Shown one piece after another: positions 8,077 through 10,800 of a stretch of DNA of 64,000 bases. Numbering within the stretch: position 1 is the stretch's first letter; the number at the start of each line of letters is the position of its first letter. Location: the NCBI GenBank assembly GCA_903913865.1, contig CAIWMU010000127.1:62001-126000 (forward strand), written 5' to 3'. Made by a program: the position numbers and the translations under genes. The stretch comes from an uncultured Verrucomicrobia subdivision 3 bacterium (GTDB taxonomy: Bacteria; Verrucomicrobiota; Verrucomicrobiia; Limisphaerales; UBA8199). The notes below the pieces were generated by a model. That model saw only the letters and a list, made by a program, of their open reading frames with translations. It was not told where the DNA came from and ran no database searches.

Positions 8077-8853
8077 GTGGCCAAGCCTGCACAAATAGAA
8101 CTGCCGACCGGGGATACGATCCCGATCATATTCGAAAATCGCTCCGTGATGGCGATCGACAAGCCTGCCGGGTGGATGTTGGTTCCTCTTTCATGGCAGC
8201 GAACCAACCGCAATCTACAGGCTGCGATTAACTCTTCGATTGCGGCGGGCGATTTTTGGGCCCGCTCGCGCGGGTTGAAATTCCTCAAGTATGTCCACCG
8301 TCTGGATGCAGACACGACAGGGGTGATGTTGCTCGCCAAGAGCATGGGGGCCGTGGCCGCCTATGGGGACATGTTCGAGAACAGGAGTGTGCACAAGACC
8401 TATCTGGCAGTGGTGGCAGGCCAACCGAAGCAGCGTGAGTGGGTCTGTCGCAGCAAACTGGGCACGGACCCCAACCGAATTGGCAGCATGCGGGTGGATG
8501 ACCGGGAGGGGAAGGATGCTGAGACAACCTTCCGGGTGCTGGCCCAGCAGGGTGGGCGCACTTTGATTCAGGCCGAGCCGCTGACCGGCCGGACTCATCA
8601 GATTCGTGTCCACCTCGCAACCTCCGGATGCCCGATCTTCGGGGATGATCTTTACGGGAGCGGGGACAGTAAGCGTTTGCCTGATCTTGGGCTGCGTGCC
8701 ATCCGTATTGAGTTTCAGGATCCCTTCACCCGACAGCGGGTTCGGGTTGAAGCGCCGGTGGAGCATTTTCTCAAGGAATTCGGTTTTCCTGCCACTGCCA
8801 TGGCAGGAGGAAAGGCGGAGAAGAAGGAAGGGGGAAGTGCCGATGCGGCCTAA
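8077..8853 (+). CDS. RNA pseudouridine synthase, RluA family (start uncertain; ATG 8017 or GTG 8077)
   Basis: VMAIDKPAGWMLVP...YVHRLDADTTGVMLLAKS...LIQAEPLTGRTHQIRVHLATSGCPIFGDDLYG. Confidence 0.88.
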   Translation: MAKPAQIELPTGDTIPIIFENRSVMAIDKPAGWMLVPLSWQRTNRNLQAAINSSIAAGDFWARSRGLKFLKYVHRLDADTTGVMLLAKSMGAVAAYGDMFENRSVHKTYLAVVAGQPKQREWVCRSKLGTDPNRIGSMRVDDREGKDAETTFRVLAQQGGRTLIQAEPLTGRTHQIRVHLATSGCPIFGDDLYGSGDSKRLPDLGLRAIRIEFQDPFTRQRVRVEAPVEHFLKEFGFPATAMAGGKAEKKEGGSADAA

Positions 8854-9355
8854 GGTGGCCAGGCAGGGAAAGGCGCCAGCCAAAACCGAGGTGGGCCGCA
8901 ATGAATGGCTTGTTTTCAGGCGCTCCGGAATCCACGGCATCGGTGCGTTTGCCCTGGTGTCCATCCCCTCCGGGACGGAGGTTATTGAATACGTTGGGGA
9001 GAGGATCTCCAAGGCGGAATCCCTCCGAAGATGCGAGGCTGATAACCAATATATTTTCCATGTGAACGAGGAGTCGGATCTGGATGGGAACGTGGATTGG
9101 AATCTGGCCCGATACATCAACCACGGATGCTCTCCTAATTGTGAAGCAGAGATGGATGGTGAGCGAATTCTGATCAAGGCAATCAAGGACATTCCCCCGG
9201 GTGCGGAGGTGACGTTCAACTATGGATATGACCTTGAGGACTACAGGGATCACCCCTGCCGATGCGGACAGCCGGGATGCGTTGGCTACATCGTCGCCGA
9301 GGAGTTCTTTGAGCAGGTGCGCAGATCATCCGGGACCACCCTCGGCCTGGAATAG
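8843..9355 (+). CDS. SET-domain protein with post-SET-like Cys cluster (putative protein lysine methyltransferase)
   Basis: FRRSGIHGIGAFALVSIPSGTEVIEYVGE...NLARYINHGCSPNCEAEM...IPPGAEVTFNYGYD...CRCGQPGCVGYI; overlaps the preceding stop by 11 nt. Confidence 0.9.
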   Translation: MRPKVARQGKAPAKTEVGRNEWLVFRRSGIHGIGAFALVSIPSGTEVIEYVGERISKAESLRRCEADNQYIFHVNEESDLDGNVDWNLARYINHGCSPNCEAEMDGERILIKAIKDIPPGAEVTFNYGYDLEDYRDHPCRCGQPGCVGYIVAEEFFEQVRRSSGTTLGLE

Positions 9356-9404: not shown

Positions 9405-10274
9405 TCAACCCAGTGGCGGGGTGGAGCGTGCTGCCCGGTGTTGCTCCTCAAGATAGCTGATCCAGCCCTCCATTCCCAACCCGGTGCGGGACGATACCTC
9501 GAAAACAGTCGCACGCGGGGCCGACAGGCTGATGTTTTTCAACGCCGTGCTGCGATCGAATGCACAGGGCCCGGCCAAGTCCATTTTGCTCACGACCACC
9601 GCGCCTGCAGATTGAAATATGGGCGGATATTTCAAGGGCTTGTCCTCCCCTTCAGTCACCGAGAGCAGCACCACGCGGAGGTCCTCCCCCAGATCGTAGG
9701 AGGAGGGGCAAACGAGATTGCCGACGTTCTCGATGATCAGCAGATCCAGATCCCGGGATGGGAGTTCTGCGACAGCCCGGCCTATCATTCCCGCATCCAA
9801 ATGGCAGACTGTGCCGGTTGTGATCTGCACAACAGGAGCGCCCGACTCCCGCAATCGCAAGCCGTCATTTTCAGTGGCCAGATCACCCACAATGACACCA
9901 GCGCGAAGCCTGCCTTTAAGACGGATCAGTGTTTCCCGCAGAAACGCCGTCTTGCCCGAGCCGGGGGAGGAGACGACGTTCAGAACGAACAGGTTCCTGG
10001 CCCGGAAGTAGCCTCGATTCCGCTCGGCGAGGCGGTCGTTCTGGTCGAGAATGGCGCGCCCCACCTGCAGCTGGCGTCGATTGGCCCCGGCGGTGGCATC
10101 AGCCGGAGCATGGGAATGGTCGTGATCATGAGTGTGCGGGTGCTCATGGTCGTGACCGTGTGAATGGGGGTGGTCGTGGGAGTGGGGATGATGGTGGGCA
10201 TGGTGTGCCATCCCGGGAATTGTTATTTTGGGCGGTTTTTCAGAGGGTGTTCCACATCCGCAATCGTTACACAT
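9405..10274 (-). CDS. hypB: Hydrogenase nickel incorporation GTPase HypB with His-rich N-terminal region
   Basis: MCNDCGCG... (CxxCGC), HHAHHHPHSHDHPHSHGHDHEHPHTHDHDHSH, NVVSSPGSGKTAFLRETL, GDLATENDGLRLRESGAPVVQITTGTVCHLDAGM. Confidence 0.95.
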   Translation of the reverse strand: MCNDCGCGTPSEKPPKITIPGMAHHAHHHPHSHDHPHSHGHDHEHPHTHDHDHSHAPADATAGANRRQLQVGRAILDQNDRLAERNRGYFRARNLFVLNVVSSPGSGKTAFLRETLIRLKGRLRAGVIVGDLATENDGLRLRESGAPVVQITTGTVCHLDAGMIGRAVAELPSRDLDLLIIENVGNLVCPSSYDLGEDLRVVLLSVTEGEDKPLKYPPIFQSAGAVVVSKMDLAGPCAFDRSTALKNISLSAPRATVFEVSSRTGLGMEGWISYLEEQHRAARSTPPLG

Positions 10275-10615
10275 TATTCAACCTCCAGTGAAGTGAGTTC
10301 AAGTTCCCGCCCCCCGAGCAATTCACGGCTCAGGCTCTGGCAGCTTGGGCAAACCGCCAGCAGGTTGTCTGCCTGAAAACGTGCCTGACAGGCAGAACAC
10401 CAGAAACTGGCCGGAACCGTCTCAATGCGCAGTTCCGCCCCCCCGGCGGGGGTGCCTGGTGACAGGGCGTCGAAGGCGAAGCGGAGTGCATCCGGGACAA
10501 CGCCGCTTAGGCTGCCAATCCTCAGTGTGACAACACAAATGCGGTCCGCCCCCGCCTTGCGAGCTTGTCCAGCCGCCACCTCCAGAGTGGCTTCCATGAT
10601 CGACATTTCGTGCAT
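10274..10615 (-). CDS. hypA: Hydrogenase maturation nickel metallochaperone HypA
   Basis: MHEMSIMEATLEVAAGQARKAGADRICVVTLRIGSLSGVVPDALRFAFD...FWCSACQARF...CPSCQS; TAATG overlap with hypB. Confidence 0.94.
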   Translation of the reverse strand: MHEMSIMEATLEVAAGQARKAGADRICVVTLRIGSLSGVVPDALRFAFDALSPGTPAGGAELRIETVPASFWCSACQARFQADNLLAVCPSCQSLSRELLGGRELELTSLEVE

Positions 10616-10800
10616 GCCCAGTGGTCTGCTGCCTCGAATCATAGCTGCCGGAGGGTGGGGCATCCAATCTAAAACCGCGACCTTTTCGCACTCCTCTGTT
10701 GGAATCGTCCGTCCTTCAAGGCTGCTTATCGCGAGGCCTCCCAAACCCATGCTTGATTTATGGTCGGGAATTTGCAACAAACAGGGTCAGCAGCCTTGTT

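Follow-up and report, generated by a model that had tools for sequence, protein, structure and literature searches.

What does a small bacterial SET-domain protein methylate when its gene adjoins that of an RNA-modifying enzyme? The question is raised by a gene in the window, the 64,000-nucleotide stretch of DNA from an uncultured Verrucomicrobia subdivision 3 bacterium that was analyzed here. We know of no settled substrate for bacterial SET proteins outside pathogens. Bacterial SET proteins as such are already known, and the window protein is one more of these; what is new here is the gene context, namely a conserved link to an RluA-family gene and a fusion of SET to a divergent RsmH-like protein (RsmH2), neither of which was found in the literature searched, whose coverage was incomplete.

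A SET and Post-SET Protein in the Window

The SET gene (8843-9355, + strand) encodes a protein of 170 amino acids that is predicted to be a protein-lysine N-methyltransferase, based on its motifs, Pfam match, orthologs, profile search against the PDB and structural model. The Pfam SET domain (PF00856, E=5.7e-21) spans residues 32-128 (8936-9226), scores 75.3 bits against a curated cut-off of 22.4, and covers positions 1-105 of the 105 in the profile; no domain besides SET was found by Pfam in the 170-residue protein. The pseudoknot motifs NHxCxPN and ELxFxYxY are present as NHGCSPN (NHGC, residues 93-96) and EVTFNYGYD, the latter containing the catalytic-type Tyr127. The sequence-only reading of this DNA had quoted these motifs as RYINHGCSPNCE and NYGYD, along with a post-SET-like CRCGQPGC, and the translated open reading frame contains all three as quoted. 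CRCGQPGC corresponds to the zinc-site pattern CxCx4C (C139, C141 and C146; 9257-9280), and C96 of NHGC (9128-9130), the fourth zinc ligand, completes the four-cysteine post-SET set. These features support the earlier proposal that a bacterium here encodes a protein with the architecture of a SET plus post-SET lysine methyltransferase, and make a cytoplasmic SAM-dependent protein-lysine N-methyltransferase the most likely function of the protein. The gene is the sole SET match in the source genome (6.27 Mb, Verrucomicrobiota). Neither the SET protein nor the RluA protein of the window scored over the cut-off of a specific NCBIfam equivalog.

Conservation of the protein was assessed in 51 aligned orthologs from Verrucomicrobiota, in which N93, H94, C96, N99, E122, Y127, C139, C141 and C146 are invariant. 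Values of dN/dS ranged from 0.04 to 0.24 in the seven related pairs for which they were computable (synonymous sites were saturated in two further pairs), demonstrating that the gene evolves under purifying selection. The single match in the genome, the retention of the motifs in 51 orthologs and the low dN/dS place the SET assignment far beyond chance; judged by its sequence, the gene is real, functional-looking and well conserved. An AlphaFold2 model of the protein had a mean pLDDT of 90.6, and its top Foldseek matches in the PDB were the SET domains of MLL1 and MLL3 (E ~1e-12, ~33% identity, TM 0.60-0.68 on query length). The profile search against the PDB placed KMT2D first at 5.7e-37, followed by MLL and SET1.

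Arrangement of the RluA and SET Genes

The gene upstream of SET (8077-8853, + strand) encodes an RluA-family pseudouridine synthase, with a match to PF00849 (PseudoU_synth_2) of 3.7e-29 and 102.3 bits against a cut-off of 26.8. It scored 175.9 bits with TIGR00005, under that model's cut-off of 192.7, and no equivalog reached its cut-off. The open frame extends further 5', and the conserved sequence begins at GTG 8077, which is most likely the start codon because the orthologs begin M(A/P)KPxHIELPTGE. The RluA stop codon occupies 8851-8853 and the SET gene has an ATG at 8843, so the two genes overlap by 11 nt (8843-8853) if this ATG is the start. A Shine-Dalgarno-like AAGGAAGGGGG, read from the sequence at 8824-8834 within the 3' end of the RluA gene, lies 8 nt 5' of the ATG, and this spacing favors ATG 8843. 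The exact 11-nt overlap, as given in the sequence-only reading, is likely but short of proof, since two further codons, GTG 8837 and GTG 8855, could serve as in-frame starts; use of the latter would abolish the overlap. The overlap is also not general, in that the spacing between RluA and SET varies among loci from overlaps of ~11-29 nt up to gaps of ~18-42 nt, indicating that the arrangement in the window belongs to one lineage.

The RluA-SET pair is flanked by a divergent frame resembling an FAD-dependent oxidoreductase and by a convergent HypB-like frame, both named by reading the sequence. No sigma-70 promoter or intrinsic terminator beyond chance was found bounding the pair, and no Rfam families or tRNA genes were found in the window. 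The HypB-like frame (His-rich N-terminus, GTPase) and an adjoining HypA-like frame lie at 9405-10780 (- strand), convergent with the SET gene; their side-by-side position suggests that hydrogenase maturation genes are located nearby.

Distribution and Phylogeny of the SET Orthologs

Of 293 genomes examined in the order, 139 have an ortholog of the SET protein (profile search, E<=1e-25), as do 53 of 289 genomes drawn from the phylum; orthologs are widespread in environmental MAGs (lake, bog, Baikal). The presence of SET in Verrucomicrobiota is thus wide but patchy. Full post-SET sites had been described as typical of eukaryotic and chlamydial enzymes. This description is misleading: CxCx4C and NHxC are present by pattern in 143 of the 146 SET sequences collected, and the complete set also occurs in Burkholderiales (Paraburkholderia, Variovorax), in a xanthomonad (Xanthomonas), in a Patescibacteria MAG (Kaiserbacteria) and in marine viral (phage) contigs.

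Phylogeny of the SET domain had been put forward as a check. A quickly built tree joins the Verrucomicrobiota sequences in one cluster (86-92% SH-aLRT), inside which the marine viral sequences are nested. Sequences from the window's own order make up a starred clade, except for those of families f2 and f36, which fall among the rest of the class. The tree covers two eukaryotic sequences only and few other phyla, too narrow a sampling to separate a eukaryotic from a bacterial origin of the family.

Marine viral contigs from IMG/VR (L246-L264) encode SET plus post-SET proteins, mostly 40-45% identical to the window protein's family (for example L249:2983-3471 and L251:2935-3444). These genes adjoin a DnaB-like helicase or an ATP-dependent DNA ligase, which suggests phage, and a Synechococcus phage (PV340850) carries a SET gene. 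In a separate genome, two tandem SET matches share a strand, with ~120 nt between them (G075:C90:54901-55851, L176).

A Recurrent Neighborhood with RluA

To place the window pair in context, SET neighborhoods were gathered from ~140 loci. Among the 80 upstream neighbors on the same strand, PseudoU_synth_2 was the commonest Pfam family (19/80) and MraW/RsmH the second (4/80). For the 49 divergent upstream neighbors, neither of these families, nor any other RNA-modification family, was among the 25 commonest. Among the 109 loci of the order, a similarity count places an orthologous RluA gene directly upstream of SET in 24, representing eight families, and nearby without adjacency in four more. 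The 24 include two loci with longer RluA frames that were counted as direct neighbors on inspection, L108 and L123 (the latter a long open frame). At L108 (4091-5647, - strand) the RluA protein that precedes SET has 519 amino acids, with a long C-terminal extension that has no Pfam match. An apparent in-frame RluA-SET fusion at L142/L145 was ruled out by an RluA stop codon followed 42 nt on by an ATG. The source genome contains seven PF00849 matches, the window RluA among them; assuming ~5000 genes, we roughly estimate the chance of RluA-SET adjacency in one genome at ~0.1-0.2%.

This linkage has clear bounds. Parsimony gave 16 changes of context label on the SET tree, and part of the linkage with RNA-modification genes is inherited by descent rather than independent. 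A genome of the same genus (G001) carries SET without the RluA link, and about two thirds of the SET loci have unrelated neighbors (exchangers, sulfatases, transporters and others). When RluA orthologs were called at E<=1e-55 across the 293 genomes of the order, both genes were present in 77, SET only in 62, RluA only in 128 and neither in 26. There was no positive co-occurrence (Fisher odds ratio 0.25 across the 293 genomes, phylogeny ignored); with 62 of 139 SET genomes lacking RluA and 128 of 205 RluA genomes lacking SET, neither gene requires the other. An obligate RluA-SET pair is rejected by these counts together with the adjacency in only 24 of 109 loci. The pairing with RluA noted earlier is supported as a two-gene unit in the window but does not extend to most orthologs, which have other neighbors.

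Adjacency and Fusion of SET with RsmH2

A second link is with RsmH2, which is directly upstream of SET or fused to it in 7 of 109 loci from four families, three of the seven being fusions; an RsmH-like gene is nearby without being adjacent in one more locus. In three genomes of family f41, RsmH2 and SET form a single uninterrupted frame containing SET and post-SET (L048:304-1932, with the same gene in L077; L122; L136). At L048, Pfam identifies Methyltransf_5 (PF01795) and SET in one protein of 543 amino acids. RsmH2 is a second paralog with an N-terminal extension, scoring 217-256 bits, compared to 324-362 bits for the canonical RsmH in the same genomes. Both paralogs were present in 10 of 12 genomes tested, most of which were chosen for having the link. 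The source genome also has both, the second on contig C9 (L272:4654-5796, - strand), where the N-terminal extension includes RRRPRYSGKYPRKF. Dependence of SET on RsmH2 was rejected, as SET is also present in genomes G005 and G008, each of which has only one RsmH. In locus L086, RsmH2 and RluA are both found within 5.4 kb upstream of SET, with RluA on the opposite strand; this co-location indicates that both links may derive from one old neighborhood.

Candidate Substrates of the SET Protein

The geometry by which SAM and lysine meet in the active site, and the closure of the lysine channel by post-SET, are established for SET enzymes. In the window protein, the NHxC/YxY active site would accordingly be where SAM and the substrate lysine come together, with the zinc-bound post-SET loop closing the lysine channel. 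RluA and SET would be made together from the two-gene unit, and in the window lineage the overlap may give coupled translation and a similar dosage of the two proteins. Protein methylation and rRNA or tRNA modification could then take place on the same assembling particle. It is from this gene context, RluA and RsmH2, that the ribosome or its assembly emerges as the candidate target. We therefore favor, with not quite an even chance of being correct, a translation-related substrate, in the form of an endogenous basic nucleic-acid-binding protein that most likely belongs to the ribosome or its assembly. The suggestion in the sequence-only reading that the substrate might be linked to the ribosome or to RNA was a reasonable hypothesis, which gains support from RluA adjacency in eight families and RsmH2-SET fusions in one. 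A bolder version is doubtful: that a verrucomicrobial SET1-like branch serves the ribosome exclusively, being expressed together with RluA, bifunctional when fused to RsmH2 as in some lineages, and active in methylating a ribosomal protein or assembly factor in concert with the modification of rRNA.

The SET protein could instead methylate lysines of nucleoid proteins, such as HU or another basic DNA-binding protein, the RNA-modification neighbors being incidental. This we regard as somewhat improbable. The kinship of the enzyme points in this direction, its nearest solved relatives being chromatin enzymes, and nucleoid targets have precedents in bacteria and archaea, with cpnSET reported to methylate chlamydial Hc1 and Go1-SET reported to methylate archaeal MC1-alpha (PMC3980110). 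HU genes were present in 12 of 12 genomes tested, and in one genus of family f2 the SET protein itself bears a lysine-rich C-terminal tail resembling histone H1. On the other side, no nucleoid gene is prominent among the neighbors of SET, and the HU matches are mostly in open frames of 96-132 codons; judged by frame length, long lysine-rich HU tails are unlikely. Hc1 of the chlamydial type was rejected as a substrate, since none of the 293 genomes searched in the order gave a PF07432 match. The tailed SET protein is encoded at L045:1444-2022 (genus g12, family f2), and its long tail is rich in lysine and alanine KKSKKAKKAKKKAAKKTVKGKKKSKKKAKK.

It is unlikely that SET is a patchy accessory gene whose target lies outside both translation and the nucleoid, or whose specificity is broad, with the RluA and RsmH2 links reflecting an inherited neighborhood. 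The patchy presence described above, the varied neighbors and the lack of positive co-occurrence with RluA are what such a gene would show. However, RluA adjacency persists in eight families, whereas most other neighbors are common to only a few loci, and the in-frame fusion in three genomes is with a homolog of an rRNA methyltransferase.

NUE of Chlamydia and RomA/LegAS4 of Legionella are effectors that methylate histones of the eukaryotic host. A comparable role for the window protein, secreted to methylate the histones of a eukaryotic host or predator, is very improbable, even though its sequence and fold are nearest to eukaryotic H3K4 methyltransferases. The window protein matches the Legionella AnkI/LegAS4 model weakly, at 29.6 bits where the cut-off is 550, and this reflects the shared SET domain only. 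The 170 amino acids hold no added targeting domain, the orthologs are spread through environmental MAGs, and co-transcription or fusion with rRNA-modification enzymes speaks for a cytoplasmic role. A SET-fold binding module lacking methyltransferase activity can practically be set aside, given the purifying selection on the gene and the invariance, across the 51 orthologs, of all residues expected for catalysis and zinc binding.

The recurrence of rRNA-modifying genes next to SET is a hint that the SET protein may target the translation machinery of its own cell, and the RluA neighborhood and the RsmH2-SET fusion make ribosomes a testable place to look. If the translation-related reading is correct, bacterial SET chemistry would serve translation, and close relatives of the eukaryotic histone methyltransferases would be at work in bacteria on a different basic nucleoprotein. 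If the ribosome-dedicated version is correct, bacteria would possess a SET enzyme that works in translation, and also a bifunctional rRNA and protein methyltransferase. Should the translation-related reading be false, the protein would still offer a well-conserved case from the PVC group in which the targets of prokaryotic SET enzymes can be sought.

Comparison with Known Systems

SET genes of free-living bacteria were reviewed in 2014, including those of the verrucomicrobium Opitutus terrae (YP_001821399) and of Gemmata (PMC3980110). Their hosts are free-living, as here, and Opitutus belongs to the same phylum; those genes were listed from a genome search without context or substrate, whereas the window gene is in tandem with RluA and has RsmH2 fusions in its relatives. 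The Paraburkholderia and Caballeronia proteins, annotated by PGAP as SET domain-containing protein-lysine N-methyltransferase, are 33-41% identical to the window protein, and the two Burkholderiales proteins read out have the post-SET CxCx4C as it does. In contrast, their genes are on large plasmids beside transporters, with no rRNA-modification neighbor in the two stretches read. The chlamydial proteins cpnSET and NUE, for which methylation of histones or Hc1 has been reported and of which NUE is secreted (PMC3980110, PMC2904774), are likened to the window protein by description, as SET-domain proteins of related bacteria. Their host is an intracellular pathogen, and their Hc1 substrate family is absent from the window's order. 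As to the partner, RsmH2 shares PF01795 with the 16S rRNA methyltransferase RsmH (MraW), from which it differs as a divergent second paralog with an N-terminal extension.

The closest comparison is with the KMT2/SET1 enzymes (MLL, yeast Set1), which gave the best profile match in sequence (5.7e-37) and, through MLL1 and MLL3 at ~33% identity, the best match in fold. The NHxC and CxCx4C zinc set and the active-site motifs are common to both. The KMT2/SET1 enzymes are large multidomain proteins with big N-terminal regions, whereas the window protein is a single bacterial domain of 170 amino acids, in which H3K4 specificity and COMPASS-type partners are not expected. The window protein is not classed as a KMT2 member; KMT2/SET1 proteins are its closest solved relatives in both sequence and fold.
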